64,000 nucleotides of DNA from a virus, in IMG/VR virus record IMGVR_UViG_3300009124_000002, positions 55,004 through 119,003 of that record; one strand, written 5' to 3'. Position numbers and translations under genes: made by a program. The notes beneath the pieces were generated by a model that did no database searches, was not told the DNA's origin, and saw only the letters and a list, made by a program, of their open reading frames with translations. Positions 1,092 to 49,132 of the stretch are shown one piece after another (the stretch's first letter is position 1; the number at the start of each line of letters is the position of its first letter).

Positions 1092-1702
1092 ATCTTTTTA
1101 TTTACAAAGACCATGCCAGTATCGACCATGAAGGAGATACCTTTCTTCCTCATTGACTTTACAATTGGCATGGTGGAGTTGCTTCTAAGTGATTCTGTTA
1201 AGACCTTTGATTGGTAAAGATGATACTCTTTAAATTTATCTATCCAATAAGATGCTTCTTGACAGTTGACATGGTGATACCCCTTTTTACCCGGCAAAGC
1301 ATGAGTCATAACAACATATTTGCATCTTTTCATGATGTCTACGTAGTTTGGTATATATTGCTGATCTACGTGTTCTACAAACTCAACACACCAACAAACA
1401 TCATACAAGTTAAGCGGAAGTTCCTTCACGGTCCCTTTGGTGAAATCATGAATAATGAATTTTGATTCATCAAATCTTTTGATGGTGAAGTCGCCATCAA
1501 TACCAACAACATGATTAAATCCAACTTTTAATGCCTCTTCGACCATTCCACCGGGACCACATCCAAGGTCACAAAATGACTGGCATTCTAATTCATTATG
1601 CAACCAAGTTAAAGCCCCTCGGTCAATATGAGTTAGATTAGAATGACCGCCGAGATGTTTTCCTAATTTAGAACCATCCATATCTTTTCTTGACTTCTTC
1701 AT
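1088..1702 (-). CDS. Class I SAM-dependent methyltransferase
   Basis: The 204-residue product contains the glycine-rich SAM-binding motif I in CDLGCGPGGMVEEAL (about residue 45), followed by the acidic motif GIDGD at the end of the second strand. A WCVEFVEHV stretch matches the post-II motif of small-molecule and sugar methyltransferases. It lies in an operon with glycosyltransferases, so methylation of a sugar or glycan is the most economical role; DNA methylation is not suggested because no DPPY or PCQ motif is present. The gene overlaps the upstream gene by 35 bp. A second ATG at 1681 would also work, so the start is uncertain. Confidence 0.75.
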   Translation of the reverse strand: MKKSRKDMDGSKLGKHLGGHSNLTHIDRGALTWLHNELECQSFCDLGCGPGGMVEEALKVGFNHVVGIDGDFTIKRFDESKFIIHDFTKGTVKELPLNLYDVCWCVEFVEHVDQQYIPNYVDIMKRCKYVVMTHALPGKKGYHHVNCQEASYWIDKFKEYHLYQSKVLTESLRSNSTMPIVKSMRKKGISFMVDTGMVFVNKKI

Positions 1703-2609
1703 AGCACTTCATTAGATGATTTATAGGTTTAAATGAAAGAATTTCTTTTTTGTTCCACTGCGTATAAGCAAGGTTATGCAGCCATTGTGCCCTATCAAAT
1801 TCAACAATATCATTTTCAATGCTTGAGAGGTCATGATTAGAAACCTCCCAAGCCATACAAGATGGACAAGTAGACCAAGTTGGGATTCCTTCGCAAACAC
1901 TTTCTGTCAGTGTGTTTGATGACATTCCGACCACGGCGAAGGCTCCAGCAAAATCTTCATACAATCCTCTTCCTCCCCATCCTTGTTTAGTGTGGACCCC
2001 ATCATAATTAGAACTTATCTCCAGACCATCAATTTCAAGTCTATTGATAAGATCAAGTTGCCGCTGAATAAAACAGGATGCAATAGGATGAAGTCTTATT
2101 CGTATCTTTCTGTCAGTGTGTCTTCGTATCTCCCTCAAGACTGAATCCAAATATCTAAAGTATTTCTCTGAACTATATTGCCCACCCTCCCATGCTATCT
2201 TCATTAAGGCACTATCTTCTGGCTTTTGGAGAATGAATAGAATATACCCATCATCTGGACGACACCAATCCTTGATGTCGATATTGAGATCCTCCTTAAT
2301 TTTATTCCATCTATCCGGTGGGCAGTCTTTGTTATTATATTCTCCATCATCTCTGGTATATGAATTCCATGAAAATCTATAATAATACTCTTTACCTAAT
2401 CCAATTTGCCTAAATGCCGGACTTTCAAAAACAATGACTGGCTTTCTTGATTCTCTTATGGTATCAATGCTGACTTGCTCTTCATAATTCTTTCCCTTTA
2501 TGTTATGCTGTAACCAAACATCAACATCGTCTGCCGCCGTCGCCTGTTTAATATCTGGTGGGAGAATTCTTTGGATTCTTTTCTTTAAATGTAAGTAACC
2601 AAACCTCAT
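1668..2609 (-). CDS. Glycosyltransferase-like protein (surface-glycan type)
   Basis: This 313-residue protein has two Rossmann-like halves. The N-terminal half contains RKPVIVFESPAFRQ and DDGYILFILQKP. The C-terminal half contains RIRLHPIA and a FAVVGMSSNTLTESVCEGIPTW segment, which resembles the donor-binding half of GT-B or capsule-type transferases where a small-residue loop precedes an E-x-x-x-x-G-I-P motif. Proteins of this type occur in marine T4-like phages, but their substrates are uncharacterised. The start ATG overlaps the preceding stop (ATGA). The fold assignment is by pattern only; the acceptor is unknown. The truncated gene at the window's left edge appears to be a relative. Confidence 0.6.
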   Translation of the reverse strand: MRFGYLHLKKRIQRILPPDIKQATAADDVDVWLQHNIKGKNYEEQVSIDTIRESRKPVIVFESPAFRQIGLGKEYYYRFSWNSYTRDDGEYNNKDCPPDRWNKIKEDLNIDIKDWCRPDDGYILFILQKPEDSALMKIAWEGGQYSSEKYFRYLDSVLREIRRHTDRKIRIRLHPIASCFIQRQLDLINRLEIDGLEISSNYDGVHTKQGWGGRGLYEDFAGAFAVVGMSSNTLTESVCEGIPTWSTCPSCMAWEVSNHDLSSIENDIVEFDRAQWLHNLAYTQWNKKEILSFKPINHLMKCYEEVKKRYGWF

Positions 2610-3340
2610 GTTACGAGATACTTATTTTCTGGACTCCTGAGATTGTCTTTTCTCTTGCCTTTGCAATGGTCATAGATTGAACCAAGGACACTCCATGCTT
2701 GAACATGACCAGTCCCTTTCCCTTTGAAGTTTTTCTTAGTGAATCCAATATTGTGATTTTTCACACCATGCTTTTTTTCAAATTCAATCCTCACTTGGTC
2801 AACAACATAACTATCATGCCACTCACGAAGTTGGTATATTTCATCGTTTGAATACATGTCCTGTAATCTCCTCGCCCATGATTTGGTTTGCTCATGATTC
2901 GTATTGAAGTAAAGGAATCCGCATTCCGAATACTTTCTAATCCTACCAAGATATGCCATCATGCATTCGTCTTTATGGATATTTGAACTAACCCACTCAT
3001 GGTCTATTGGTTTATAGAACACACTATCGGCATCAATGTAGATAACTCCATCATAGTCAGTTCTATTCAAGATCAGGTCAGTGTAACCATACACTTTGTA
3101 GCAAAATCTAACCCCATCGTAAAGAAATGACTCTACAGGCTTATCCTTGTTTCTCTCGACAAACTCTTTACATTCTGGAACATCTTTGAATAGGTTTACC
3201 GTCTTCCCCTTTGGGGCAATCCAATCTGCATCCTCCGTATATGTAAACAGATCAAAATCCCAATTGTATGTTTCATAGAACTTATGACCATAGTAGTCAT
3301 AGAGTTTCTTATTCAGTGATGTTACAACTGCAATCTTCAT
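2606..3340 (-). CDS. GT-A fold glycosyltransferase with DADS motif
   Basis: The 244-residue product starts MKIAVVTSLNKKLYDYYG and has the metal-binding DxD-like motif DADS in GVIYIDADSVFYKPI (about residue 100). After it come GFLYFNTNHE, matching the F-N-T/S-G acceptor region of GT-A enzymes, and HDSYVVDQV. It is a second, distinct sugar transferase in the operon beside the one at 426-1091. Its ATG overlaps the stop of the next methyltransferase gene (ATGA). Assignment to a GT-A nucleotide-sugar transferase is reasonably secure. The donor sugar and target are not identifiable, and a role in host-surface or virion glycosylation is inference from the neighbours. Confidence 0.7.
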   Translation of the reverse strand: MKIAVVTSLNKKLYDYYGHKFYETYNWDFDLFTYTEDADWIAPKGKTVNLFKDVPECKEFVERNKDKPVESFLYDGVRFCYKVYGYTDLILNRTDYDGVIYIDADSVFYKPIDHEWVSSNIHKDECMMAYLGRIRKYSECGFLYFNTNHEQTKSWARRLQDMYSNDEIYQLREWHDSYVVDQVRIEFEKKHGVKNHNIGFTKKNFKGKGTGHVQAWSVLGSIYDHCKGKRKDNLRSPENKYLVT

Positions 3341-3924
3341 TTCAGAATATCTTGAATCTTGGAAAAGGTATCATCGTCTTCTGTCCAGATAGCTAGACAA
3401 ACATCCATCACCTTTCCACATGGCTCTGTGATTAATACATTCTTCATGTCTTTTACAATGGAATAGCATCCAAAGTTTTCCCTGTCAAATCCACCATGAA
3501 TATCGTTGATGTAGTAATCATCAAACACAACAACCTTGCTTCCACTAACAGATTTGAAATCTCCAATAATAGATTCTACTCTATGGTCACCATCAATGAA
3601 TACCAAGTCAGCACTCTTTGGATTTTTCCAGAGAGTTTCTTGCGTTACGCCCTTGATCAACTCAACACGGGAAGCGTGTTCCTTTAATCTTTGCTTTACT
3701 TGAGAAACAGTGTGAACTCTCTTACCGTTTCCAACCATCTTGTGAAATTCTTGGTCAGAGAAATCGAACACATCATATCCTGTATATGTCGTATCCTTTG
3801 GTGCAGTGTCCAGCATCCATTTTGCCGTCTTGCCTTTCGCTACACCAATTTCAATGATTGATTTTGGTTTCAATTCTTCAATCAGTCTGAAGATATATCC
3901 ATATCTTGATTTTATCTCATTCAT
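3337..3924 (-). CDS. SAM-dependent methyltransferase (Methyltransf_24 type)
   Basis: This 195-residue enzyme shows motif I in SIIEIGVAKGKTAKWML (about residue 23), the second-strand acidic turn TGYDVFD, and the diagnostic DLVFIDGDHRVESIIGDF block. That block is typical of class I enzymes acting on sugars, macrocinols or related small molecules (TylF/CmcI/Methyltransf_24 group). The D-G-D-H acidic cluster usually binds a divalent metal. Its position between two glycosyltransferase genes and a ParB-like gene suggests O-methylation of a glycan made by the operon. Start and stop both overlap neighbours by four bases. Confidence 0.75.
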   Translation of the reverse strand: MNEIKSRYGYIFRLIEELKPKSIIEIGVAKGKTAKWMLDTAPKDTTYTGYDVFDFSDQEFHKMVGNGKRVHTVSQVKQRLKEHASRVELIKGVTQETLWKNPKSADLVFIDGDHRVESIIGDFKSVSGSKVVVFDDYYINDIHGGFDRENFGCYSIVKDMKNVLITEPCGKVMDVCLAIWTEDDDTFSKIQDILK

Positions 3925-4346
3925 CTTCGCTTTGGTATCTTGTCGTGTGGTATGTGAGTGTATCTCTTAATCATCTGACGTTCTGCTGTTGAGGTTATCA
4001 TGTATCCCTCAATTGCCTTATATCCGTTCTCCAATGCCCACTTGACTCTTTTGTGACCAACATGAACATATAGACCGGGAATAATCTTACCATCCTTATC
4101 TACGTTGGTTCTCTCTGGGTTATTTGGTTCTATTTCAATTCTTCTTTTAACCCACTTATGATCGTGTGTAGATACCGCAATTGGATACATCATACCTGCC
4201 TTCTGAAAGCTTTCATTGTATCCAAATTTCTCCATACGAGCATTGAGCCAAGCATCAGAGGGGAGAAAGCGAATGTCCTTTACATCAAACAGTCGAACGC
4301 AAAGTTTGATTTCTTTTGGATGGAAGTTTGCTTGTAGTATTTTCAC
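3921..4346 (-). CDS. ParB/sulfiredoxin-like protein
   Basis: The 141-residue product has the ParB-like N-terminal pattern: a conserved basic/acidic stretch, FQKAGMMYPIAVS (the G-x-x-x-P-I-x-V strand), then GLYVHVGHKRVKWALENGYKAIEGY. The last segment matches the G-H/N-x-R-x-x-A-A-x-x-x-G box of the ParB/Srx nucleotide-binding fold. No helix-turn-helix follows, so it is not a partition protein. Stand-alone ParB-like proteins are common in phages and often sit next to modification or glycan genes; their biochemistry ranges from CTPase to nuclease. Assignment rests on motif shape, and the function is unknown. Confidence 0.55.
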   Translation of the reverse strand: MKILQANFHPKEIKLCVRLFDVKDIRFLPSDAWLNARMEKFGYNESFQKAGMMYPIAVSTHDHKWVKRRIEIEPNNPERTNVDKDGKIIPGLYVHVGHKRVKWALENGYKAIEGYMITSTAERQMIKRYTHIPHDKIPKRR

Positions 4347-20145: not shown

Positions 20146-20838
20146 TCATAGTCCAAAAGCAGTAATGGTATGTTCAAATGGATTGCCTTCAATATTCTTC
20201 ACCAAGTCAAGCATCATCTGAGCAATCTCACGAATCTCTTTCTGAGCTTCCGGTTTGTTTCGCAATCCCTGAAAGTGATAGAATGATCTCCAGTTGAACA
20301 TCACATCTGACGTAATCCTGCTATTGTAGGTCTTGAAGAATCGAGCAGATTCCTTGGCACGTTTGCGACCCAGAACAGGTTCAAGATCAGCAACACATTG
20401 GTGATAAAGGTCATTTCCTTTTCTGGTATATTGTTCTAAAACCTCAGTCCAGTATTCTGTTGGAAACGGAAACTCATTTCCGTTAATATCCCTTGGCACA
20501 ATGGGCGGGGGAGATTTCTTAATACCAGCCCAATCATCAGGCACAATATACTTGTCTTCTTTCAGTTCCTTGTATCGAGCAGATTCAGCATTTAATGACA
20601 CTCCGATACGATGTTTAAGAAGGTGAATATGACTAGCAATATCGCAATCGACCAGAAAGTGCAGAGAAGACTTCTCGAAAGGTGTGTGGTGACCCTCTTT
20701 AGCGAGGAAGCTGAGTAGTTGCGGTATTCTGTTTCGTTTCTCATCTGTAATCTCTCGACTGGTGGAAGTCCATGCGCTACAGGCATGAACCTCATCATCA
20801 CCGTAGTATCCGATAAGTTCTACTGTATTATTGTTCAT
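20146..20838 (-). CDS. thyX: Flavin-dependent thymidylate synthase ThyX
   Basis: The 230-residue enzyme makes dTMP from dUMP using methylene-tetrahydrofolate, FAD and NADPH. It starts at the ATG at 20838, which overlaps the preceding stop by one base (TAATG). The family signature appears as KHRIGVSLNAESARY, a variant of R-H-R-x-x-S-x-N-E-x-S-x-R-Y, after a FEKSSLHFLVDC segment. The later VMFNWRSFYHFQGLR block holds the conserved C-terminal folate/FAD-binding Arg. It works with RNR, dUTPase and dCMP deaminase in phage dTTP supply. Confidence 0.9.
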   Translation of the reverse strand: MNNNTVELIGYYGDDEVHACSAWTSTSREITDEKRNRIPQLLSFLAKEGHHTPFEKSSLHFLVDCDIASHIHLLKHRIGVSLNAESARYKELKEDKYIVPDDWAGIKKSPPPIVPRDINGNEFPFPTEYWTEVLEQYTRKGNDLYHQCVADLEPVLGRKRAKESARFFKTYNSRITSDVMFNWRSFYHFQGLRNKPEAQKEIREIAQMMLDLVKNIEGNPFEHTITAFGL

Positions 20839-21074
20839 TAAACTTCTTCCAATGGGCAATGTTCACTTACTACTTCAATTTCTGCGTAATCAAAAAGCTC
20901 GTATCCGTGCAGCTTGAACACGGCGTCTTCAAAAACAACTTTGCCTTCAAGGTCGTAATATTCGTGATTTGCGAGAATCATTCTCGCCGTGATAGTGTCG
21001 CCCTCATAGATGTCAACACCATTCTTGTCCTTGAGTCCAGCGGGGGTGCGTAGATCGCGCTCTTGTTCTTTCAT
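20838..21074 (-). CDS. YopX-like small protein
   Basis: A 78-residue protein from the ATG at 21074, containing RTPAGLKDKNGVDIYEGDTI, the G-L-K-D-K-N-G-x-x-I-Y-E-G-D signature of the YopX family of phage proteins. A beta-rich remainder follows (GKVVFEDAVFKLHGYEL). Function is unknown. A consensus sigma70 promoter lies just upstream, its -10 ending nine bases before the ATG, which fixes the start and predicts a nearly leaderless transcript. thyX follows with TAATG overlap. Confidence 0.7.
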   Translation of the reverse strand: MKEQERDLRTPAGLKDKNGVDIYEGDTITARMILANHEYYDLEGKVVFEDAVFKLHGYELFDYAEIEVVSEHCPLEEV

Positions 21075-22303: not shown

Positions 22304-23335
22304 TCAATCTTCAAGCATTGGTGAATGTGCAACAGTGAATTTCTGACGAATCACTTCGGCAAAGTCTGTATTATCTATAATGGGCTTCCAGAAGTCTCCC
22401 TTCATGGTATCTGCTGCTCGACAATTGCTGGCAGCAAGTTCCTTCTTGGTTGCAGGATCGATGGGCATATACCAACCATTCTTTGGCTTGATAACATGAC
22501 CAGTCTGTAGTGCAACATCCAGAAGACCAGACCACTTTTCAATTCCACCTTCCCAAGAAACTGAAATTGGAATCTTGGACTTCTCACGAACAAAGCGAGA
22601 CTTCTCGACATTGATTACAAAGTGATAACCCTGAATCTCAGTTCCAACCTTATCCTGCTGGCGACCAATGATCCAGATGTTATCAGCGGAGTAGTATGCA
22701 CCGGTTCCACCAGATACGATGTCCTTGGGGAACATACCCTGTTCCTTGTAGGTATGATTGATCGTCAGAAGAGGAATGTCCTTCATTGCCAAGTGAGGAG
22801 TCAGCATACGAAAGAGAGACTTCAATGCCTTGGCGCGGGTCATGTCAGCAACACTCTTTTCATTCAGGGCATCCTCAACCTCTTTCTTAGAAGCGACATT
22901 ACCAATAGAGTCAATGACAATGACAACCTTCTCATCACGCTTGAGTTCATTCAACTGATGAATCAAGTCGAACTTCAGAACCTCAATGTCAGTGACAGGA
23001 GTATGAAGAACACGATCCGTATCGATACCAAAGGATTCAAAGTATGATTGTGGCGAACCAAATTCACTATCATAGAACAGCAATGCTGCATCATCATACT
23101 TCTTGAGATATGCAGATGCCATTAGCAGTGCAAAGGATGTCTTGAAGTGTTTGCTTGGTCCTGCCAGCATTGTGTGACCGGGAGCAAGACCACCATCAAG
23201 TGAACCAGACAATGCCACATTGAGCATTGGAACTGAGGTTGGAATCATGTCCTTCTTGGTGAAGAACTTTGAGTCAGTGAGAACAGAGACGTTCTCAACC
23301 TTACTTGATTTTTTGAGTCTATCGATTAGTGACAT
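22304..23335 (-). CDS. uvsX: UvsX RecA-like recombinase
   Basis: The 343-residue protein forms filaments on single-stranded DNA and drives T4-type recombination-dependent replication. It has Walker A AGPSKHFKTSFA (about residue 58), Walker B KVVIVIDSIG, the PLLTINHTY strand and the DNA-binding loop region SGGTGAYYSADNIW. Length and motifs are those of T4 UvsX (about 390 residues) and shorter marine versions. Partner UvsY is at 47993-48439 and helicase gp41 is downstream. Confidence 0.93.
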   Translation of the reverse strand: MSLIDRLKKSSKVENVSVLTDSKFFTKKDMIPTSVPMLNVALSGSLDGGLAPGHTMLAGPSKHFKTSFALLMASAYLKKYDDAALLFYDSEFGSPQSYFESFGIDTDRVLHTPVTDIEVLKFDLIHQLNELKRDEKVVIVIDSIGNVASKKEVEDALNEKSVADMTRAKALKSLFRMLTPHLAMKDIPLLTINHTYKEQGMFPKDIVSGGTGAYYSADNIWIIGRQQDKVGTEIQGYHFVINVEKSRFVREKSKIPISVSWEGGIEKWSGLLDVALQTGHVIKPKNGWYMPIDPATKKELAASNCRAADTMKGDFWKPIIDNTDFAEVIRQKFTVAHSPMLED

Positions 23336-27033: not shown

Positions 27034-27585
27034 TTAGGAACTTACAACTTTCAGGAGAAAATCCACGATATTTTCAGTGTTTTCATGGGTTTCATGTGGC
27101 ATCTCGATCACGCATCCCTTCTCCTCTCCGAAAAGGGTCTGTTTTGGTCCGAACTCCGTGATAATATTCTGGACCTTGGTGCGGACTGTGGAGATGAACC
27201 TTTCGGGCTGACTCGAGCCTCTCTCGGCGTATCTCCGCTCCCTCTCGGCGTCCGAGACCGTCAGGTGGAGGATGGTCAGATCATCACCGCAGGAGGAAAA
27301 GAAAGTCTTGTTGTTTAGACGATCTCCTTCTCCCACGATCACTTCATTCGGTTTCCCAGAAACGAACTTGACTGCTTCAGGGCAAACCGCCATGGACAAG
27401 CGATCGGTTCCACTGAAAGTCTCGCCCTCTTCATACTTACCAAGCACACGAATGTTGCCTGATATATGAGTGTCAAGGAGATTGACAGGTCGATCCGAGG
27501 TCCACCCATCAAAACGACTCATGAATTCCTTCATGACCGTAGACTTGCCGGAGCCGGGAAGTCCAATGAGATAAACAACCTTCAT
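27034..27585 (-). CDS. P-loop kinase, candidate DNA-base kinase
   Basis: The 183-residue protein begins MKVVYLIGLPGSGKST, with Walker A at residues 8-16, and ends as a small nucleoside-kinase-like fold. EVIVGEGDRLN is a Walker B-like strand and ERERRYAERGSSQ is a lid-type Arg cluster. It is coupled by ATGA to the TET/JBP dioxygenase gene. Comparative genomics of phage TET/JBP and 5-hydroxymethyluracil systems links such stand-alone kinases to phosphorylation of hydroxymethyl bases in DNA. That substrate is inferred from context; a nucleotide or polynucleotide kinase remains possible. Confidence 0.65.
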   Translation of the reverse strand: MKVVYLIGLPGSGKSTVMKEFMSRFDGWTSDRPVNLLDTHISGNIRVLGKYEEGETFSGTDRLSMAVCPEAVKFVSGKPNEVIVGEGDRLNNKTFFSSCGDDLTILHLTVSDAERERRYAERGSSQPERFISTVRTKVQNIITEFGPKQTLFGEEKGCVIEMPHETHENTENIVDFLLKVVSS

Positions 27586-28988
27586 GCGAAGAAATCGTCA
27601 AGTGTGCTTACTTGTTGGCGAGCTTCGGGGTGATATTGTTTGAGCATATCCTCGCCACCTCGGTCAGCAAGATAATCATACCATTCACCCTCATCCCACA
27701 TTGAAGGAGAAACTCCATTCCAAAATGGTTTCCAGAGAGGATGTTCCTCATTCTTGCGGCGATCATCAACGTATTGCTTACGAAGTGCTTCGTATTCCCA
27801 TGAGCCAAGCTTGTCCATATCTTCACGAAAATAGAAGACCAACGACATACGCAACATGTCTTCATCACCAGAATCAGGCGCAGAGATCGGAGTATTACCA
27901 TGAATGATTCTCATGTTATCAATCAGCAGTAGATCTCCCGGTCGAATGTTGATTGCTGCACGAACTTCTGGTGTTACCAGATAACCACCTTTCCAATCTT
28001 TACCGTCCTTGGTCACAACTGTGAGGTTGGAATACCCAGCATTCAAAGAACCGGCATCACGATGACAAGCCATGCGAGCATTGCGATCCTTGCTTGTGGT
28101 GTTAACAGTAATTGTAGTGAATGTGGTGTCTTCTCCGATTAGAAAGCGATTGTCAAGACGATCAGCAAACTCTTTCTGTTTTGCCCATCTTTCAGGAAGC
28201 AATCGCTTGAACTCAGCTTCAAGTTTGCGGGCAAAGGGGTAGCACTTATCAAACTGCTCTCGGTTATGATCGGTGTAAGCTGTTGCGCGACCATAAGGAA
28301 TCCGAGGATACCGACCATAGAAACCAGCAATGCCAGACCAGATTGGAGTAGCGTAACTGGTAGCAGAAACAAACTCTTTTCTCAGCTTCTTCGAGTATGC
28401 TTTAGCATCATCAATAGACATACCAATCATCTTCTCAAGAGCCAACGGGAAGAAACCTTCGTATGTCCCAAACTCTTTCTCAACTCGAGAGCGCAACCAC
28501 ACCTCACCGCGAGTCTCATACTTTTTGTTTTGGTGCTGTTGAAAGATGTTATCAAGAGGATCATCGCCATCGATAGACTGTGGTTGACCTTGTTCAAAGT
28601 GAGCAAGAATATCTTGCTGATAAGGAGTCACCCAATCTCTATTCCCGTCCTTGTCACCTCTGGGACCAGCTGCATGCCCACGGTTATTGGATTCAACAGC
28701 AGCTTCATACAGACCATCGAAAGCGCCAAGCTGTTCTTCCGGCGTGAACGTGCCTTTGCGAAACTTAAAGGCAACGCAATCTTCACCTAGCTCATCTCCG
28801 GCATCGAAGCCATTCTTTGGCAAGTAGAAATCAGCATCGCTATCAACAAGAATATCGTATGATCCCTCATCAACCAACTTACCAAGAAGGTCATCTTCAT
28901 TAACCACAAATTGGGCAATATAGACATCTTGACCCTCATCGCCTTTGAACTTCTTCCACTTCCGACCGTTTTTTTCGATTATTTCCAT
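27582..28988 (-). CDS. TET/JBP-type 2-oxoglutarate/Fe(II) dioxygenase
   Basis: The 468-residue protein has the double-stranded beta-helix core in its C-terminal third. The iron ligands fit H309-x-D311 (ACHRDAGSLNAGYSNL) and His363 (IIHGNTPI), with Arg380 (MLRMSLVFYFRE) for 2-oxoglutarate; GGYLV and IRPGDLLLIDN are the usual strands. The sequence around H-R-D-A-G-S-L-N-x-G-Y-S-N-L is that of phage TET/JBP enzymes, which hydroxylate 5-methylcytosine or thymine in DNA. The N-terminal about 280 residues hold no recognised domain. It is flanked by a P-loop kinase and an amino acid:DNA transferase-like gene. No C5-cytosine methyltransferase is in the window, so thymine or 5mC as substrate is open. 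Confidence 0.75.
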   Translation of the reverse strand: MEIIEKNGRKWKKFKGDEGQDVYIAQFVVNEDDLLGKLVDEGSYDILVDSDADFYLPKNGFDAGDELGEDCVAFKFRKGTFTPEEQLGAFDGLYEAAVESNNRGHAAGPRGDKDGNRDWVTPYQQDILAHFEQGQPQSIDGDDPLDNIFQQHQNKKYETRGEVWLRSRVEKEFGTYEGFFPLALEKMIGMSIDDAKAYSKKLRKEFVSATSYATPIWSGIAGFYGRYPRIPYGRATAYTDHNREQFDKCYPFARKLEAEFKRLLPERWAKQKEFADRLDNRFLIGEDTTFTTITVNTTSKDRNARMACHRDAGSLNAGYSNLTVVTKDGKDWKGGYLVTPEVRAAINIRPGDLLLIDNMRIIHGNTPISAPDSGDEDMLRMSLVFYFREDMDKLGSWEYEALRKQYVDDRRKNEEHPLWKPFWNGVSPSMWDEGEWYDYLADRGGEDMLKQYHPEARQQVSTLDDFFA

Positions 28989-29003
28989 ATCTGTTATATT
29001 CTA

Positions 29004-30017
29004 CTAAACTATGAACTTATCCAACCCAATATCATTTATCTCATTCGAGAAGGTGCCTCTATGATCAATCTTCCCACTATCAAGGAAGAGAGACATCTTA
29101 CCCTTATTCACACAATTTGTCAAGTATTCTTCTCGTAGAGTTTCTCTCCTTGCGTCCCACATAGGTTGCCAATCAATACCGAACCAATTGTCTCCCTCAA
29201 CCTTCTGAATCTCTTCAGCCTGTCGGTCAATGTAGTATCCAAGGTAGCGACCATTGCGAACTCGAAACAACTTCTTGAACGAACACAGACATGTTTCCAT
29301 GGCAAAATAATCTGCCTTGTCTGCTACATTAGGAAATCTCTTCCTCACTTCAGCCAGCATCTCTGCTGCCCTTGAATTCAACATAGAAAGTTGGTCCTTG
29401 TTTAGTCTCTGATTGACCCACTCGTCTTCACCAACAGCATAGCAAAGACCATTGCGATGAGAACGGCTTCCTGAGTAGTCATGCAACCAAAGATTGTCAA
29501 CATCCAGATTCACCTTGGCGCATTGCTTTAGAGTCTGAAGGTAGAACCATGAAGTGTAACGTCCGAACTTGTGCCAACCATTGACCTGCTCCCACAGGTT
29601 CTGAAAGGTTTGATTTGCATCATCAGTCAAATGCTCAGAAAACCTTTCGTGTTGCGTCTTATCGCCAACCCATTCCTTGTAAGACTCAAACTGATCAGCC
29701 AAATGCCCCTTGTTCCATTTGGTGTCCGTTTGATAGCGCAACCGACTGTAGTTTTCGTTGTTCCACTCACGAAGACGTTCAACACCTACCAACTCCATAT
29801 CAGGAAATTCATTCCAGATGAGGTAAGCTGTGGGGAAGTGATACGTTGTCCCATACAACCAAACCAACCAATACTTTTGCTCAAGATTGTATTCAAACCG
29901 ATCAAAGAAATAGTTGGTCATGTAGAGAGCAGAGTCGCAATCATCTAACTCAAGGGACCAACCAAACCAATTGATGAATGCTTCTTCTCTGTTTTCTTTA
30001 AGTCTGTAATCCATCAT
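29004..30017 (-). CDS. Amino acid:DNA transferase-like protein (aGPT-Pplase clade 3)
   Basis: The 337-residue protein carries FGWSLELDDCDSALYMTNYFFDRF, EYNLEQKYWLVWLYGTTYHFPTA and RYQTDTKWNKGH. I recognise these as the family named alpha-glutamyl/putrescinyl thymine pyrophosphorylase clade 3. Members have been re-described as amino acid:DNA transferases that attach an amino acid or amine to an activated hydroxymethyl-pyrimidine in DNA. Later conserved parts: WLHDYSGSRSHRNGLCYAVG and FAMETCLCSFKKLFRVRNGRYLGYYIDR. It is coupled by ATGA to the GNAT gene and 15 bases upstream of the dioxygenase gene. Family recognition is fairly strong; donor and base are unknown. Confidence 0.7.
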   Translation of the reverse strand: MMDYRLKENREEAFINWFGWSLELDDCDSALYMTNYFFDRFEYNLEQKYWLVWLYGTTYHFPTAYLIWNEFPDMELVGVERLREWNNENYSRLRYQTDTKWNKGHLADQFESYKEWVGDKTQHERFSEHLTDDANQTFQNLWEQVNGWHKFGRYTSWFYLQTLKQCAKVNLDVDNLWLHDYSGSRSHRNGLCYAVGEDEWVNQRLNKDQLSMLNSRAAEMLAEVRKRFPNVADKADYFAMETCLCSFKKLFRVRNGRYLGYYIDRQAEEIQKVEGDNWFGIDWQPMWDARRETLREEYLTNCVNKGKMSLFLDSGKIDHRGTFSNEINDIGLDKFIV

Positions 30018-30658
30018 AGAAACGCATCTATTGTAACTGGTTCTGCGATACTTTCAAGAGAATTTCTGAGCCATGAATCACCAACAGCCTTGATTGCCCC
30101 AAGAACCTTCTCTGTTTTCTTGACGCCAAATCCATGAGACTCAAGGGATTCATTTAAAAATTGACACACAACCTTGGCGTCTGGAACGGCAAGTTTCGGA
30201 GACGCTATAGCTTTCTCTCGAAACTCAAGTTGTTCCTTGCGGGTTGGGAAAAGTGGCTGGTCGCTGCGCAATGAGCCAGAACGATCCACTGCCCAGAACA
30301 CAAGACCGTTTCGATTATGCCATGTCACAGAAGTTGGAGTACATGATAACTTCAATCTTCTCATACCCGAGTTGTATGCATCAGCCATGACTTCCTCCCA
30401 TATGCGACTTGCATATCCATTGCCTTCTTTGCCTTCGATTGTGACTATCTCATAAAGGTTAATATACTTCGACCTTTGGCTGTATGTGGCAAATACAAGG
30501 GCGACGACTTCTCCGTTATCCTTTAGTGCAAAGGGAGGGTGCTTATCATAATTCTTGAAGCGATACCAGAGGCTATGAGCAGCAGAAAGAAACTTGGTGT
30601 TCTTTCCCGGCGAAGACTCATTGATAATATCCTCGGTGTTTTTAATTCTTTCTATCAT
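30014..30658 (-). CDS. GNAT-family acyltransferase of the modification cassette
   Basis: The 214-residue protein has the GNAT core: a beta strand INLYEIVTIE, then the acetyl-CoA pyrophosphate loop GKEGNGYASRIWEEVM (compare Q/R-x-x-G-x-G/A), then a helix and RRLKLSCTPTSVTWHNRNGLVFW, the usual W/Y-H-x-x-x-G-F region. In phage hypermodification clusters GNAT proteins acylate the amine attached to the base; that is the inferred role here. The C-terminal about 60 residues are helical and unassigned. It overlaps both neighbours as ATGA. Confidence 0.65.
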   Translation of the reverse strand: MIERIKNTEDIINESSPGKNTKFLSAAHSLWYRFKNYDKHPPFALKDNGEVVALVFATYSQRSKYINLYEIVTIEGKEGNGYASRIWEEVMADAYNSGMRRLKLSCTPTSVTWHNRNGLVFWAVDRSGSLRSDQPLFPTRKEQLEFREKAIASPKLAVPDAKVVCQFLNESLESHGFGVKKTEKVLGAIKAVGDSWLRNSLESIAEPVTIDAFL

Positions 30659-31326
30659 CGCTGCAAGTCCTTTATTTGATTCTCTTCAATAAAGTCTCTG
30701 TGCATGTCCATTATGGTTCTTTGTGCGCTATATTGACGAAACATTTCGCACTTCTGGGGATTAACCAAACCAGCTCGAAGAGCGATATCTTTGGTTGAGG
30801 TAAAAACAACATCACTGTCATTGAACACTGTTTTCCAAAGAGGTCTTGCCTCATTACGATATGCCCAAATCATTTTAGACGCATGAAGTTCAATCACTGC
30901 CATACTACTAGGGCGAAAGAAAGTGAGTGGGTTCTTATCGTTCTCAAGCGCACGAAGAATAAGCTCGCTGTCATTTTTGGTTTCAGTCTTGTAACACCAT
31001 TTGTCTGGTGGTTCCTGAGATATGACGCCATTGTGAACTATGGAGATTTGTCCATTGCTAAATGGTTGATTGTATCTTAGGTCTGATGTTGAGTATCGAA
31101 TGTGACCAATAAGAGAAACGCTTCCATCAGAATCAATCACCCGATTAAGGTCAAACGTATCAAGAAACTCTTCTGACGGAACGCTTTCCTTGAATGTTTT
31201 CAATACACCATCAACCACATAACTGATTCCTGTTGCGTGTTTTCCGCGAATCATAGACTGTTGGAAGATCCTTTGAATCAACCCAACGTCTGCCTGTTTC
31301 ATTTGTATTCCGATTACTGCGCACAT
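30655..31326 (-). CDS. Class II glutamine amidotransferase (stand-alone glutaminase domain)
   Basis: The 223-residue protein starts Met-Cys (MCAVIGIQ), so Cys2 would become the N-terminal nucleophile; this fixes the start at 31326. Other Ntn-glutaminase motifs are RGKHATGISY, IGHIRYSTSD (glutamine-binding Arg), IVHNGVIS (oxyanion Asn-Gly) and NDSELI (substrate Asp). No synthetase domain is attached, so the ammonia acceptor must be another protein. In the cassette it may amidate a carboxylate on a DNA-attached amino acid; this is inference. It overlaps the AEP-like gene by 13 bases. Confidence 0.75.
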   Translation of the reverse strand: MCAVIGIQMKQADVGLIQRIFQQSMIRGKHATGISYVVDGVLKTFKESVPSEEFLDTFDLNRVIDSDGSVSLIGHIRYSTSDLRYNQPFSNGQISIVHNGVISQEPPDKWCYKTETKNDSELILRALENDKNPLTFFRPSSMAVIELHASKMIWAYRNEARPLWKTVFNDSDVVFTSTKDIALRAGLVNPQKCEMFRQYSAQRTIMDMHRDFIEENQIKDLQR

Positions 31327-32246
31327 AAAACGTGTTGTATTGCTCTGTCTGCTTCTGCTTCCATAGGTCTGTTCTTATACCATGCACCCGATTGGTTGTC
31401 TATCTCTCGGCACAAGGCGGCGATTTCATAACAAGTTATGGGATAACCTCTGCGAATAGCTTTACTTGCGATGCTGGTCATTATCCGATACATGTGTCGA
31501 TACCAACCAGTGCCGGAGATCAAAAAGTATTGTTCGACTAATTCTCTGTTGATAAACGGGCAATCTTGCCAACCAACCCAACTGTATTCTCTGTTCGTAA
31601 GTGTTCCCAGTTTAGATTGCATGACCTTTCTTTGCATATCCTCAGGCAACCCATGAACAAGTGTCTGTGGCTGAGTGTTTACGAAAGGATGCTTTCGCAT
31701 AAAAGCAAATGGATTCAAGTATTCGCCTTTGTGCGTGAAGATGAAATTGTGAGCACCGGGGTATCGGGCAGGAACGTAATACATTCGACTGACATCTTTG
31801 GTTTGCTTATCGCCCATTGTCGCAAACTCAGTGTTCATAGCATGCCAAAAGTGACGTAGTTTATCAGCAAGCACCACGCCATTGAAAGGAAGGACAACAC
31901 GAAACTTTGGGTGATCTTCGGTAGACGAAGCAGTTGAGTAGCACACATAATAGTAGTCTGAGAAGACCACCAGTGCATCATCAAAAGAACCCTCATACTC
32001 ATCAACATCAAGTGCTGCCCAACCATTCCATGAAACCACATTGTCGTTTGCTCGAGTTGTCCCTTCCTTGTATGAGGCAGGGCTGATTAACGCCGATCCT
32101 CTTTTTCTGTCTCCTCTTTTGGGCTTGTAACCTGGCTGCTCGCTAAGGGAATACAACAATTTCTCAAAGCCTTCGAAGGAATCGAAAGACATCTTTCGAT
32201 GAGTCTTGTTATCAAAGATACCCTGAAAGAGTGTTAGCGAAGTCAT
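31314..32246 (-). CDS. AEP primase/PrimPol-like protein
   Basis: The 310-residue protein from the ATG at 32246 contains a likely archaeo-eukaryotic primase core. GWAALDVDEYEG gives h-h-D-h-D (Asp80, Asp82), CYSTASSTEDHPKFRVVLPF gives the s-x-H motif (His112) plus a basic residue, and TKDVSRMYYVPARYPGAH holds a third acidic residue (Asp151). The C-terminal about 100 residues are helical. It starts within a few bases of the gp43 stop, behind its own -10, and continues into the modification cassette. It could prime or translesion-copy modified DNA, or supplement gp61, which is not seen here. No zinc finger is visible. Confidence 0.55.
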   Translation of the reverse strand: MTSLTLFQGIFDNKTHRKMSFDSFEGFEKLLYSLSEQPGYKPKRGDRKRGSALISPASYKEGTTRANDNVVSWNGWAALDVDEYEGSFDDALVVFSDYYYVCYSTASSTEDHPKFRVVLPFNGVVLADKLRHFWHAMNTEFATMGDKQTKDVSRMYYVPARYPGAHNFIFTHKGEYLNPFAFMRKHPFVNTQPQTLVHGLPEDMQRKVMQSKLGTLTNREYSWVGWQDCPFINRELVEQYFLISGTGWYRHMYRIMTSIASKAIRRGYPITCYEIAALCREIDNQSGAWYKNRPMEAEADRAIQHVLCAQ

Positions 32247-32252: not shown

Positions 32253-32280
32253 ATTATACCTCAAACAAAGAAATCTTCAA
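32253..32280 (-). promoter_or_regulatory. Promoter of the AEP/modification operon (TTGAAG-N16-TATAAT)
   Basis: -10 TATAAT at 32253-32258 with a weaker -35 TTGAAG at 32275-32280 inside the last codons of gp43. Six bases, AGAGGC, separate the -10 from the ATG; exactly the same AGAGGC-ATG follows the -10 of the gp55 gene. The transcript should be essentially leaderless. Confidence 0.6.
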
Positions 32281-34771
32281 GAGTTACAATCTTCTCCGGT
32301 GCCCAGCCAATCGCATCAAGAACGAACTTCAGTGGCTCAAGAAATGCTTTCTCAAACTGTAGGTCATGATTGATGTATTTCTCCAACCCAAACTCTTCAG
32401 GCAGAACTGAGTTGAACGCAATGACATTTTCGCGAATAGGGTTTGGGATATGCAAGTAGACATACTTCATCTTGTCTCCGTTACGAATAGACTCAAACCG
32501 ATTCTGAAGACCGTTTTTCTTCAGGTGGTGATTGTAGAGAAGTGACGCTCGAACGTGCATTGGAGTCCCCTTGTCGTAGATATTAAGGTTGTCTTGATAG
32601 TTGGTCACGTTTGACACGCCACGGGGAAAGGCGATCTTCTCGACCGGGATCTCACGAAAGGCTTTCTTGAAGTCAGCGATTGCTGCTTGTGTCGTTTCCT
32701 CATCGGTGGTAAGGATAATCTTAAACATCTCCTTCATCGCTTCCCGGCAGACTTGAGGTGTTGAAGACTTGACTGCCTCGATGCCCATGATCTTCAGTTT
32801 TGGTTTTGCATACTGAACACCCTCACTGTTGTGAACATTCAGGATGTATCGTTTCTTGGCAGTCCAGATACCACGGTCAGCAATCACTTCCCGTGCCATG
32901 ACCATACGATTCTTGTATGAGTTCATGGTCACTGCAAAACGCTCAAACGCTTTCTTCAGAACAGGCTCGATTGCAGTTGAACCAAGTTCATCAAGGAACG
33001 CAACCGGGTCTTTTGGTTTTGCTTTTTGAATAACATCGTTGACATTCACATAAACAGAGTCAGTGTCAATCGCAACCACTCGGTCTTTGTCCTCACCAAG
33101 TGCTTTGTTAAGGTATGCATTCAGTTCTTTCTCTGCATACCGAATCACAGACTGACCTGTCAGAGTCACGCCTTCAGCAATACGCAAGTCAAAGTATCGA
33201 AACCATATGTTGCCCATTGCGCCATACAAGGAGTTGAGTAGAATCTTCACTGCCATCTGCTCAGTCTCACAACGAGCAATCTCTCTTTCAATCGATGGGC
33301 TTGACCCCTCTTGCTCCATGCGTTGTTGTGCCTTGAGCATTTGCTGTTTGATCATGACACGCTTGTCATACAACTCCTGAATGATCTCAGGAATGATACC
33401 CTGCTTGTCCTTACGATAGCATGAACCATTTGCAGCAACAGAAACATCATCTTCAGTAAGGCAACTATCTGCCTCAAGCACCTTGTCAGGATTCAATCCA
33501 TCGATACGAGTATGCGGTATCAAAGTCTCTGGTGACATATTGCATTGAATGATGATGTTGGGATACAGAGAGTTCAAGTCAAAGGACATCACCCAATCAT
33601 GAAGACCAACATGAGGTTCCTTGACATACCCACCAGTGAATCCCGTCCGATGATGCTTCTTGCTTGGAGGAATTGCGACCTTCTGTTGCGCCAATCTGCG
33701 AAAGATGATAGAGTCCCAGATACCCACGGTCCCAAGTGTGTCGCTATAGTTTACGCCACCAAGGTATGCCATCGTCAGAACCAGATTGATAAGACCAACC
33801 TTGTCTTCCATCTTCTCAATCAACTCAACGTCCACGATATTGTAGTCAACGAAACGCTGATAGTCCTGCTCATAGAGTTTCTTGAGTGACCCCAAGTCAG
33901 TGTAGTCTACCTTCTTTGTGCCAAGCACAACATTAGCAATGTGATCAAGCTTGTATGATTCTTGATTGCCATACTTGTAACCGAACTTCTTGAACAGGTC
34001 TAGGTAGTCCAACTGTTCGATACCCTTGATCTCAAAGGCAAGTTGTTCCTTGCCCATCATCTTGATAGTCTTAGCATCATACAACCCCCATGGCGAGAGC
34101 TTCTTTGCCTCTTTTGCCCCTAAGACGTTTACAATGCGATTTACAATGTAAGGGATATCAAAGAACCGAGTGTTCCACCCAGTAATAATGTCTGGTGTGT
34201 GATCCTTGTTTGACCACCAAGCAAGGAAAGACTGGAGCATAGAGACTTCATCGGGGTATTCGTAGTATTCGATCTGAAGCCCAGTGGTGGTTTGATGTGG
34301 GTTGTAGCTCTTACCAAAACCCCAGATGCGATAGATGTCTTCTCGACTCGACTTCAAGGCGATAGTGAGGATCTCTTGATTGGCGATATGCGGATGAGGA
34401 AACCCATCATCATATGCAGTCTCAATGTCAATGTAAACAACATCGACGTTCCTTGGTTCAAACTCAATCTTGCCGGGAAACCTCGACTGAATGAATGCTG
34501 GAATGTGTCTGTCATTACCATGAATGGTATATCCATCGACACCCTCATACAATTTGATAAACTCACCCGCCTCACGCATGGTGTTGAACTTCATAGGCTC
34601 AAGCGAGGAACCAGCAAGGGATTGCCATTGAGAGGGTGAGGAGTTTTTGGATTCAAGGTAGAGTGTGGGCTTGAACGAAACCCTTTCCTCAACTCGCTTT
34701 CCTTGATTGTCGTATCCTCGGTAGAGGATCTTGTTTCCGTATTTGCAAATGGAAGTGTAAAACCCGGTCAT
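32261..34771 (-). CDS. 43: DNA polymerase gp43 (family B)
   Basis: The 836-residue replicative polymerase carries the 3'-5' exonuclease (VVYIDIETAYDDG as Exo I, ITGWNTRFFDIPY as Exo II, YNIVDVELIEKM as Exo III). The polymerase motifs follow: SFDLNSLYPNII (motif A), KILLNSLYGAMGN (motif B) and AIDTDSVYVN (motif C). The C-terminal LEDFF tail fits a clamp-binding peptide. Length is near T4 gp43 (898). Start is set at 34771; an ATG two codons earlier falls upstream of the expected transcript start. A terminator and promoter lie directly before it. Confidence 0.95.
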   Translation of the reverse strand: MTGFYTSICKYGNKILYRGYDNQGKRVEERVSFKPTLYLESKNSSPSQWQSLAGSSLEPMKFNTMREAGEFIKLYEGVDGYTIHGNDRHIPAFIQSRFPGKIEFEPRNVDVVYIDIETAYDDGFPHPHIANQEILTIALKSSREDIYRIWGFGKSYNPHQTTTGLQIEYYEYPDEVSMLQSFLAWWSNKDHTPDIITGWNTRFFDIPYIVNRIVNVLGAKEAKKLSPWGLYDAKTIKMMGKEQLAFEIKGIEQLDYLDLFKKFGYKYGNQESYKLDHIANVVLGTKKVDYTDLGSLKKLYEQDYQRFVDYNIVDVELIEKMEDKVGLINLVLTMAYLGGVNYSDTLGTVGIWDSIIFRRLAQQKVAIPPSKKHHRTGFTGGYVKEPHVGLHDWVMSFDLNSLYPNIIIQCNMSPETLIPHTRIDGLNPDKVLEADSCLTEDDVSVAANGSCYRKDKQGIIPEIIQELYDKRVMIKQQMLKAQQRMEQEGSSPSIEREIARCETEQMAVKILLNSLYGAMGNIWFRYFDLRIAEGVTLTGQSVIRYAEKELNAYLNKALGEDKDRVVAIDTDSVYVNVNDVIQKAKPKDPVAFLDELGSTAIEPVLKKAFERFAVTMNSYKNRMVMAREVIADRGIWTAKKRYILNVHNSEGVQYAKPKLKIMGIEAVKSSTPQVCREAMKEMFKIILTTDEETTQAAIADFKKAFREIPVEKIAFPRGVSNVTNYQDNLNIYDKGTPMHVRASLLYNHHLKKNGLQNRFESIRNGDKMKYVYLHIPNPIRENVIAFNSVLPEEFGLEKYINHDLQFEKAFLEPLKFVLDAIGWAPEKIVTLEDFFV

Positions 34772-34779
34772 GAGCATAC

Positions 34780-37205: not shown

Positions 37206-37517
37206 TCAGTCAGCACCTTCAGCGGTGACTTCTTCTCCTTGTTTTGCTTGCTCCTCTACCTCTTCTTCAGTGGTTGCCTCAGTCTTTGGAGCATTCTCCT
37301 CCAAAAATGCTTGCAGACGTTCACCAAGGGTTCCTACGTTTTTCAACTCATTGAGTTCAAATGCACCACGACGGGATGCTGCTTTAAGAACTTCAACGGT
37401 GAAAGCAATATCACTCAAAGAGATACTTGCCTTTTGTTCCTTTGGTTCCCATCCATCCTTTACGGTGGATGCCCCTTCTTCCACTTGTTCTGTTTCTTTA
37501 TCCATATCTTTATCCAT
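37206..37517 (-). CDS. Conserved hypothetical protein between gp45 and gp44
   Basis: A 103-residue protein from the ATG at 37517, overlapping the gp45 stop region. It has an acidic start (MDKDMDKETEQVEEGA) and end. The core ASISLSDIAFTVEVLKAASRRGAFELNELKNVGTLGERLQAFLEE is a conserved block that I recall from the same position in other marine T4-like phages (I-x-D-I-x-x-V-V-x-V-I-x-x-x-S-x-R-G-A-F). Function is unknown; an association with the clamp is only positional. Confidence 0.65.
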   Translation of the reverse strand: MDKDMDKETEQVEEGASTVKDGWEPKEQKASISLSDIAFTVEVLKAASRRGAFELNELKNVGTLGERLQAFLEENAPKTEATTEEEVEEQAKQGEEVTAEGAD

Positions 37518-38184
37518 TGAATGTTGATGCCTTATCCACTGCGATGAAGTATTCAACTTTGGTATCGTCAGCAGTATTTGCCCATTTACTTATAAGCTTT
37601 GAACTAATTTGAACCAGATAGTCGCCAGCCACCAAGGACAAGTTGTTGAGGTCAAAGTGCATGTCAAAGGCAACTTTGCTCTCATGATCAAGTTCAATGC
37701 TGAACTCATTTGAAGACTTGTCCTTATCGTTCAAGGTTGAAAAACGAGTCTTTCCTTTACCCTTAGAATGAATATGGCAAAAACTACACCCAAGAGTGCG
37801 AGCAGCTGTATCAATAGTCTGCCGATCAGGGTGAGTGATAACCAACTCAACATCAACAGATGGCAAGGCGATATCCTTCGGGGGAGTCTCGAGAGTTGCC
37901 GTCTCTGCTCTGGTATAGCGCACTCGCTGATTCCCAGACTTCATGATCACTAACCTGTCATCAAACTCAAGGTCAGCGTCATCAAGGATCTTGTAAATCG
38001 CTAGGAAGTTCTTGAGATTGTAGATACCAAACTCTTGTGGGAAGGTTTCTTCAATAGTAGCACTTCCGAGGACAGTGCGTGAACTGGAGATGGTCTTGAG
38101 CGTGGATCCCGGTTTGATCAGGATATTGTCGTTAATGAGAGAGAAGTTCTCGAGGATTCGTTTAGTGTTATTCGATAGTTTCAT
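37510..38184 (-). CDS. 45: Sliding clamp gp45
   Basis: The 224-residue DNA-polymerase processivity clamp, also the activator of late transcription with gp55. MKLSNNTKRILENFSLINDNILIKPG is the T4-type start; the beta-rich body includes GIYNLKNFLAIYKILDDADLEF and ELDHESKVAFDMHFDLNNLSLVAGDY. Length equals T4 gp45 (228). It overlaps the upstream gene by four bases. Confidence 0.93.
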   Translation of the reverse strand: MKLSNNTKRILENFSLINDNILIKPGSTLKTISSSRTVLGSATIEETFPQEFGIYNLKNFLAIYKILDDADLEFDDRLVIMKSGNQRVRYTRAETATLETPPKDIALPSVDVELVITHPDRQTIDTAARTLGCSFCHIHSKGKGKTRFSTLNDKDKSSNEFSIELDHESKVAFDMHFDLNNLSLVAGDYLVQISSKLISKWANTADDTKVEYFIAVDKASTFNG

Positions 38185-45255: not shown

Positions 45256-45324
45256 ATGAAGTATTCAAGCAGTTCATGGAGTGGTCTTACCCGACCCCGG
45301 TTGTCCAAAGATGGAGATAATCAT
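45256..45324 (-). pseudogene. Truncated P-loop kinase remnant
   Basis: An ATG at 45324, overlapping the gp55 stop as ATGA, starts MIISIFGQPGSGKTTP and then meets a stop at 45274-45276. The Walker A is intact. One base over, the frame continues HELLEYFICKV up to the gp47 start, as expected for the helix after a P-loop. The simplest reading is a kinase gene reduced to its first about 25 codons by deletion and frameshift. A functional 16-residue peptide is less likely. Confidence 0.6.
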
Positions 45325-45896
45325 TTCATGAAAGGCTCAAGGGTGTTCTCATTGGAAGCGAGTTTCTTTTTCTTACGAACCTTCTTTCCAAACTCCTTGA
45401 TCTTGGAATCCCTATCACGAATCTTATCAGCACGGGAACGAAGACGTTCTACGATACCCTGACCCTGAACCATATCACCATCAAAGTCACCAAAGTTCTC
45501 GATGCCAGCATGTTCCTTGTAGAGTTCCTTGATATCCTGATGTTTCTTTTCTTTGGAGATCCTACGCAGAAAGGCATAGTAGGATATCTGTGTGAAATAA
45601 GCAAAGGCGTTGGGGTTACCAGTGCGAGTAGTCTTGGTTACATCGTAATTGTTGATTGCTTTAATGCAATTCTCTACTGCATCACTAACCATTTCATCAC
45701 GGTAGGTGTAGCAAGCAAAATTGGGTTTATGGGAAAGACCTTCTGCAATCTTGAGAAAGCAAGTTCCGATATATTCAGTAACGATAGGAGCAGATTTACC
45801 AACTTCCTTTGAGGCATTTACGGAATTGACATACTTAACCACTGCACCTGAGAATTCTTTGTTGTTAACATAATGATTCGGTTTTTCATTTTTCAT
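45321..45896 (-). CDS. 55: Late-transcription sigma factor gp55
   Basis: The 191-residue T4-type late sigma factor directs host RNA polymerase to TATAAATA promoters, which are abundant in this window. Recognisable regions: NNKEFSGAVVKYVNS, IGTCFLKIAEGLSHKPNFACYTYRDEMVSDAVENCIKAINNYDV (region 2-like) and NPNAFAYFTQISYYAFLRRISKEKK, ending in a basic tail. Promoter TTGTCG-N17-TAGAAT upstream leaves six bases before ATG. Works with gp45 and, in T4, gp33 (not seen). Confidence 0.92.
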   Translation of the reverse strand: MKNEKPNHYVNNKEFSGAVVKYVNSVNASKEVGKSAPIVTEYIGTCFLKIAEGLSHKPNFACYTYRDEMVSDAVENCIKAINNYDVTKTTRTGNPNAFAYFTQISYYAFLRRISKEKKHQDIKELYKEHAGIENFGDFDGDMVQGQGIVERLRSRADKIRDRDSKIKEFGKKVRKKKKLASNENTLEPFMK

Positions 45897-48442: not shown

Positions 48443-49132
48443 TTATATATGCCTGCAATTCTCAAAGTGGTAGCGTTTCATGTTCGAAATGCTACCTTCT
48501 TTTCCACAATGCGGGCAAGTGGTTTTTGGCTTGGGTTTACCCTTACGTGCTTCACTCATTTTCCTCTTGGTTTCTTCAGAGAACTTTTTGCCATAATTTG
48601 GGCTCTTTTCACCCATATATTTGCCCTTACGTGCTTCACTCTGTTTCCTCTTGGATTCTTCAGTGCGTTTTTTGCCCTTCTTGGCATCACTCTGTTTCCT
48701 CTTGGTTTCTTCAGAATGTGTTTTACCATAATTTGGGTTCTTTTCAACACTCTTGGCTTCCCTCATTTTCCTCTTGGTTTCTTCAGAATGCTTTTTGCCC
48801 TTACGTGCTTCACTCTGTTTCCTCTTGGTTTCTTCAGAGAACTTTTTACCCTCATTTGTATTACCACCTTGTCCTTCTTCCGGTGTCATATTTGCAAAAT
48901 CTTTAGATTCTACAATATTCCATTTATAAGAGTAATCCAAGGCGACCTTCTTGAATTCTTCCTTATCTTCAGTTTGGAAAAGAACCTCTGTGGTCACATC
49001 ATTCCCGTGTTTCTTTAAGTGACGACTCCAATGTTTACCAGAGCCTCTATAAGCATATGGATCTTCTGACTCTGTTTTACCAAGGTATTTGAGACCCGTG
49101 AGATTGTGGGTCTTGAGGTATAAATAAATCAT
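48443..49132 (-). CDS. GIY-YIG homing endonuclease with NUMOD3 repeats
   Basis: The 229-residue protein has an N-terminal GIY-YIG-type nuclease (IYLYLKTHNLTGLKYLGKT, with RGSGKHW) to about residue 90. It is followed by five to six NUMOD3 DNA-binding repeats of the form S-E-E-T-K-R-K-x-S-E-A-R-K-G-K, and a C-terminal zinc-knuckle-like CPHCGKEG...HFENC. This is the Seg/mob type of free-standing phage homing endonuclease. It sits between uvsY and the tube-like gene and is a probable mobile element; its cognate site is likely nearby in phages lacking it. Confidence 0.85.
   Translation of the reverse strand: MIYLYLKTHNLTGLKYLGKTESEDPYAYRGSGKHWSRHLKKHGNDVTTEVLFQTEDKEEFKKVALDYSYKWNIVESKDFANMTPEEGQGGNTNEGKKFSEETKRKQSEARKGKKHSEETKRKMREAKSVEKNPNYGKTHSEETKRKQSDAKKGKKRTEESKRKQSEARKGKYMGEKSPNYGKKFSEETKRKMSEARKGKPKPKTTCPHCGKEGSISNMKRYHFENCRHI
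48545..48850 (-). repeat. NUMOD3 tandem repeats
   Basis: The top strand repeats segments such as tttcctcttggtttcttcaga, spaced mostly about 45-60 bases apart, coding for S-E-E-T-K-R-K-type units of the homing endonuclease. Near-identity between units suggests recent repeat expansion or homogenisation. Confidence 0.75.

Follow-up and report, generated by a model that had tools for sequence, protein, structure and literature searches.

Hypermodification of thymidine has reportedly been described by Lee et al., in 2018 and 2022, for the phages ViI, phiW-14 and M6. The pathways of these phages involve 5-hydroxymethyldeoxyuridine (5hmdU) in DNA, a DNA kinase, amine transfer of the amino acid:DNA transferase (ADDT) type and further tailoring, and the same elements are predicted for a five-gene operon in the 119,003-bp IMG/VR record of a marine T4-like phage (here called G000), of which we analysed bases 55004-119003 (the window, 64,000 nucleotides). 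The operon encodes a P-loop nucleotide kinase (KIN), a TET/JBP dioxygenase (TET), an ADDT, a GNAT-fold acyltransferase (GNATw) and a stand-alone class II glutaminase (GAT2). New is that TET, ADDT and GNATw end in short C-terminal tails that match those of the phage's own DNA polymerase gp43 and late sigma factor gp55. Judging from sequence, we consider it fairly probable that the five genes form a thymine hypermodification pathway in which TET, ADDT and GNATw would be docked on the gp45 sliding clamp and act at the replication fork.

The ADDT of G000 is homologous over nearly its full length to those of ViI, phiW-14 and M6, and enzymes of ViI and phiW-14 also carry tails resembling those of their own polymerases. 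The route to 5hmdU differs: ViI thyA and the phiW-14 dUMP hydroxymethylase make it at the nucleotide level, whereas in G000 it is predicted to be formed by the TET/JBP enzyme on DNA. The G000 kinase belongs to Ploopntkinase3 instead of HMUD1, HMUD2 or HMUDK_hel, and G000 adds GAT2 and GNATw. Rhodococcus phage Tonitrus also combines a TET/JBP enzyme, a 5-hydroxymethyluracil DNA kinase and a transferase in one block, likewise known from prediction only; its five-gene thymine set differs in having ParB-like and aGPT-Pplase2 genes, while a GNAT, a glutaminase and clamp tails are unreported there (PMC11955845). A DNA-modifying enzyme on a phage sliding clamp is known from T4, whose alpha-glucosyltransferase binds gp45 (Sommer 2004; PMC13216743). 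There, however, a single enzyme glucosylates hydroxymethylcytosine, whereas three successive enzymes of G000 share a polymerase-type tail.

T4 gp43, gp55 and gp33 bind gp45 through similar C-termini that can be exchanged for one another (PMC2988020), and a gp45-type clamp is encoded in G000 (Table 1). The strict pattern [STGA][LIVM][DE]xF[FLMIV], required within the last 12 residues, occurs in exactly 5 of 150 selected G000 genes, namely TET, ADDT, GNATw, gp43 and gp55, while about 0.15 are expected from its internal density. Because the pattern was derived from proteins of the window, it was tested on other genomes. Kept fixed, it retrieved gp43, ADDT, GNATw, TET and one 96-aa open reading frame (ORF) from the relative G001 (153.9 kb, 205 ORFs), and gp43, TET, a D12-class adenine methyltransferase and one probable baseplate protein from the complete genome of phage C48C1 (228 ORFs). 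In the loci of a sister cassette (type B, see below) it fits all eight polymerases (8/8) and none of 648 background ORFs. Between homologues the tails are 57-71% identical, a figure inflated by picking the sequences with the pattern, and the preceding ten residues 15-29%. That three enzymes have the tail with which gp43 appears to hold the clamp suggests that modification of the phage DNA follows closely behind the fork. In a limited literature search, we did not find a shared tail on hypermodification enzymes described.

The tails follow the lineage of the phage. In phiW-14, ViI and Cygsa01, the hypermodification enzymes each carry the lineage-specific tail of their own polymerase. In phiW-14, the putrescinyl-thymine phage, gp43 ends in KLGAFFV, gp33 in SLGGFAAT and gp55 in SIARFMV, next to GLGSFFR in gp109 (ADDT), TLAQFAP in gp72 (HMUDK_hel) and GLGGFFKG in the kinase homologue gp37. 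The tails of ViI are VNLLSMMGKKG (polymerase), SVNLMSLLKR (ADDT), SVSLLGLMRKA (HMUD2) and SVNLLDRLKKPE (HMUDK_hel), those of Cygsa01 SVMDFFS, DLMGFFQ, SVLDLF and NVFDLF. The homologues in M6 lack a tail, and a T4-type clamp or polymerase was not found in 39 kb of M6; likewise, homologues in L039/L040, S-CBWM1 and HTVC112P are tailless, and gp45 was not detected there. In C48C1, the D12-class adenine DNA methyltransferase, encoded directly after gp43 (L044:33480-34364), ends in TLDAFFG, gp43 itself in TLEDFFG. A 96-aa ORF of a relative (L132:4569-4859), close in size to gp33, ends in SLEGFM and is possibly an unrecognised clamp-binding coactivator.

The enzyme assignments of the first-pass annotation largely withstood profile searches, as Table 1 shows for the P-loop kinase, the GNAT, the glutaminase and the TET/JBP dioxygenase. 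TET passes the Tet_JBP profile with 57.6 bits (cut-off 34.9); the proposed residues H309, D311, H363 and R380, representing the HxD...H iron triad and the 2-oxoglutarate-binding arginine, align with TET2 and are invariant in 11 homologues. In the records of Stenotrophomonas phage DLP_6, Caulobacter phage Cr30 and S-CBWM1 (H22, H23 and H25), the TET/JBP homologues carry the label 'SNF2 DNA repair protein', likely a misannotation that has spread. The transferase had rightly been linked to amino acid:DNA transferases (90.7 bits against PF18724, cut-off 26.2, residues 37-252) and is ~28% identical to Ackermannviridae ADDTs over nearly the full length, the ViI homologue reaching 26% over 345 aligned residues. 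Its assignment to aGPT-Pplase clade 3 was abandoned, as this match (8e-6, 25.9 bits against a cut-off of 25) is far below that to ADDT. Pfam matches of KIN are restricted to PF18751 (Ploopntkinase3) and generic P-loop families. The AlphaFold model of GNATw has a pLDDT (predicted local distance difference test) of 93, falling to low values in the C-terminal tail, and its Foldseek matches are GNATs. GAT2 also matches PurF/GlmS profiles; the proposed nucleophile Cys2 is invariant in 18 homologues together with R27 G28, H75 R77 Y78 S79, H98 N99 G100 and D119.

A search with GNATw yielded 18 independent IMG/VR loci (L025-L042) at about 51-69% identity. GAT2 directly precedes GNATw in 18/18 of them, usually with an overlap of a few bases, and ADDT, TET and KIN lie in the same block wherever the contig continues. 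The comparison of gene order with related phages, suggested in the first-pass annotation, thus shows the five-gene set in 18 distant loci, so that the grouping is not due to chance. The position of the cassette varies between genomes, and L039/L040 represent another phage type with lambda/Mu-like portal and head genes, which indicates that the five genes are transferred together. The earlier proposal of an insertion between gp43 and uvsX holds for G000, where uvsX is not adjacent, but the module is found at several other sites in relatives. In the sister cassette of type B (80 loci), a glutamine synthetase-fold amidoligase follows GAT2, another GNAT (GNATr) replaces GNATw and a ParB-like protein is often present, of which no homologue was detected in G000. 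GNATr is found in 80/80 amidoligase loci, GAT2 in 79, TET in 74, ADDT in 71 and KIN in 64. The amidoligase is weak in Pfam (0.001-0.007), and its AlphaFold model (pLDDT 89.6) matches YbdK, glutamine synthetase, glutamate-cysteine ligase and PafA. GAT2 ends in a DLQ motif (window ~30658-30670) whose D and Q are invariant in the 18-sequence alignment; DLQ is nearly always retained in type A and in many type-B proteins. In L009-L014, TET adjoins TAGT glycosyltransferases (PF20691) instead. This TET is closely related to that of G000, and both enzymes carry the same clamp-type tails, but the decoration would be a sugar rather than an amine, and kinase, ADDT, GNAT and GAT2 are missing from these loci. 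TET beside either amine-type sets or TAGTs points to one shared first step, after which the decoration differs.

We infer the chemistry, the clamp binding and the timing of the pathway as follows. Ordinary T would be incorporated into DNA, ThyX being present, and TET, as a predicted thymine hydroxylase, would convert its methyl group to give 5hmdU, as expected from its family. KIN, predicted to be a 5hmdU DNA kinase, would phosphorylate the hydroxyl group, and ADDT would displace the phosphate with an amine, by analogy with its relatives of the ViI/M6 type. GNATw may then acylate the installed amine to an N-acylated adduct, which its fold and co-occurrence suggest. GAT2 would free ammonia from glutamine and feed an amine-forming or amide-forming step. 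Since GAT2 is kept with and without a ligase, the ammonia may go to an enzyme that both forms have, for example ADDT; the constant neighbour of GAT2, however, is GNATw or the amidoligase, and gene fusions that might reveal its partner were looked for and not found. TET, ADDT and GNATw would dock on gp45 by their C-terminal peptides, as expected for gp43 and gp55, so that the modification steps would run on nascent DNA. We regard it as possible, but doubtful, that the three clamp-riding enzymes build a base with glutamine nitrogen derived from GAT2 and that clamp docking of hypermodification enzymes holds generally among T4-like phages. Such a base could be, for example, an N-acylated 5-aminomethyl-deoxyuridine or, in the sister phages, an amidoligase-extended form. 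To our knowledge, this glutamine-nitrogen chemistry is so far without precedent in DNA.

Like JBP, the pathway probably targets thymine in DNA, because G000 encodes ThyX, whereas a ThyA-type hydroxymethylase and a cytosine C5-methyltransferase were not detected in it. ThyX, present in G000 and most relatives, provides the ordinary dTMP supply, and among the records checked ThyA was found in Cr30 only. A nucleotide-level route to 5hmdU was rejected accordingly, as was a route via 5-methylcytosine (5mC), leaving TET as the predicted source of 5hmdU in G000. Some phage TETs reportedly act on 5mC in C5 hypermodification (described by Burke et al. in 2021), and in phage P12024L a gene annotated as a DNA methyltransferase adjoins that of TET, so the decorated base could be a cytosine if TET used 5mC from the host or from an undetected phage methyltransferase. 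We consider this quite improbable, since the C5-methyltransferase family PF00145 was not found in eight records including three complete genomes, and the ADDT family, like the kinase families, is known from thymidine pathways (PMC6449724). That the enzymes modify free nucleotides or RNA appears very improbable. GNAT and GAT2 families often use small molecules, but ADDT and TET/JBP are families of DNA enzymes, the common tails suggest contact with gp45 on DNA, and the phiW-14 dUMP hydroxymethylase, which works at the nucleotide level, lacks such a tail. The conserved gene set, the undetected C5-methyltransferase and ThyA and the common polymerase-type tails support DNA-base hypermodification as originally predicted.

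Directly seen are the enzyme families, the catalytic residues, the conserved operon and the tail match with gp43 and gp55. Several observations weigh against our interpretation. As the pattern stems from the window's own proteins, the window count taken alone is partly circular. In type-B loci, 39/69 TET, 19/66 ADDT and 4/79 GNATr proteins fit the strict pattern, the remaining tails being variants such as TLEDMF or GLEALW, or none. KIN has no clamp-type tail although it is expected to act on DNA, and it does not match the characterised 5hmdU DNA kinase families HMUD1, HMUD2 and HMUDK_hel (PF18748/PF18747/PF18723), which the ViI and phiW-14 enzymes do match. The pattern also matches a few unrelated proteins, i.e. 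the baseplate-like protein of C48C1, the 96-aa ORF of G001 and two other phiW-14 proteins. Finally, the T4 alpha-glucosyltransferase binds gp45 although its C-terminus has no obvious clamp-type motif, and is therefore a precedent for docking but not for the tail. The same hypermodification pathway could thus operate with C-terminal peptides that are incidental or have some other partner in replication or transcription. We hold this to be unlikely because gp43 and gp55 also bear the tail, by which their equivalents in T4 contact gp45, because it changes together with the polymerase tail from lineage to lineage, TLEDMF- and GLEALW-type variants going together within one locus, and because M6 and L039/L040, in which gp45 was not detected, have no such tail. 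Phages encode pairs of a glutamine synthetase-fold amidoligase and a GATase (Iyer 2009, cited in PMC10580990); the same pair occurs in type-B cassettes, there however inside a DNA-modification operon, while the window keeps the GATase. An amidoligase was not detected by profile and homology searches in the 119-kb record of G000, which may be incomplete, and this too speaks against our interpretation; the final amidation earlier ascribed to the glutaminase is hence plausible for the amidoligase-bearing sister form, but its amide-forming ligase is undetected in G000. Such pairs have been interpreted either as auxiliary metabolic genes or as modifying the cell wall (PMC10945688, PMC10580990), and similar stand-alone GATases occur in 161 phages. 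It nevertheless seems improbable that GAT2, joined in relatives by the amidoligase, forms a separate metabolic or cell-surface module co-travelling by chance, given its place within the operon in all GNATw loci and the co-occurrence of the amidoligase with TET, ADDT and KIN in nearly all of the 80 loci.

The record encodes the T4-type replication genes gp43, gp44, gp45, gp62, regA, gp46/47, gp55 and uvsX. The five cassette ORFs (27034-31326) lie downstream of gp43 in a minus-strand operon of the order gp43 - PrimPol-like primase - GAT2 - GNATw - ADDT - TET - KIN. They are consecutive and mostly overlapping, as first described: KIN/TET, ADDT/GNATw and GNATw/GAT2 overlap by 4 bp, GAT2 and the PrimPol-like gene by 13 bp, and TET and ADDT are separated by 15 bp. 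The span originally given (27034-32246) contains the cassette together with the PrimPol-like gene, a sixth gene that had gone unmentioned. This gene was ruled out as a cassette member, as it turns up independently beside gp43 or uvsX; in relatives, it adjoins gp43 or sits between KIN and uvsX. About 4 kb with small ORFs, a dCMP deaminase and a phosphoesterase separate the cassette from uvsX (22304-23335).

Table 1 Features of the G000 window (positions within the window)
Feature	Position	Strand	Remarks
KIN, P-loop nucleotide kinase family 3	27034..27585	-	183 aa; PF18751 3.6e-15
TET, TET/JBP 2OG-Fe(II) dioxygenase	27582..28988	-	468 aa; PF12851 1.2e-15, phrog_24024 1e-147
TET tail TLDDFFA	27585..27605	-	predicted sliding-clamp-binding peptide
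ADDT, amino acid:DNA transferase	29004..30017	-	337 aa; PF18724 1.5e-25
ADDT tail GLDKFIV	29007..29027	-	predicted clamp-binding peptide
GNATw, GNAT-fold acyltransferase	30014..30658	-	214 aa; PF00583 (Acetyltransf_1) 2.5e-6
GNATw tail TIDAFL	30017..30034	-	predicted clamp-binding peptide
GAT2, stand-alone class II glutaminase	30655..31326	-	223 aa; PF13522 (GATase_6) 2.4e-7
PrimPol-like stand-alone primase domain	31314..32246	-	phrog_9765 DNA primase 3.4e-48; longest frame starts at 32264
gp43 DNA polymerase	32261..34777	-	reference for clamp peptide
gp43 tail TLEDFFV	32264..32284	-	
gp45-type sliding clamp	37510..38184	-	PF09116 1.7e-5, another search 4.5e-7
gp55 late sigma factor	45321..45896	-	phrog_234 1.9e-50; second reference for clamp peptide
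gp55 tail TLEPFMK	45324..45344	-	
ThyX flavin-dependent thymidylate synthase	20146..20859	-	PF02511 3.6e-30

Elsewhere in the window, a protein with NUMOD3 repeats (48443-49132) resembles homing endonucleases and is probably a free-standing one. A block of glycosyltransferase- and methyltransferase-like genes is located at window 426-4346 and G000:C1:51482-55432. The phage genes outside the window are interrupted by several genes of cellular type (DUF1501, PSCyt2/PSD1 cytochrome protein, signal peptidase S26 and MotA/TolQ/ExbB; G000:C1:37878-44072, L004/L005) such as are typical of Planctomycetes and related bacteria; they represent either an assembly chimera or DNA captured from the host and give a hint at the host.

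It is an open question how new phage DNA becomes densely modified before host nucleases arrive, and likewise how the several steps of such a base chemistry are coordinated. Clamp binding through a tail common to successive enzymes would be a concrete and easily tested answer to both. The tail may serve as a sequence signature for further DNA-modifying enzymes and has already flagged an adenine methyltransferase and the TET-associated glycosyltransferases, while the steps of the glutaminase and the amidoligase point to DNA bases not yet described. These leads may be of use to studies of restriction and anti-phage defence and to enzyme mining.

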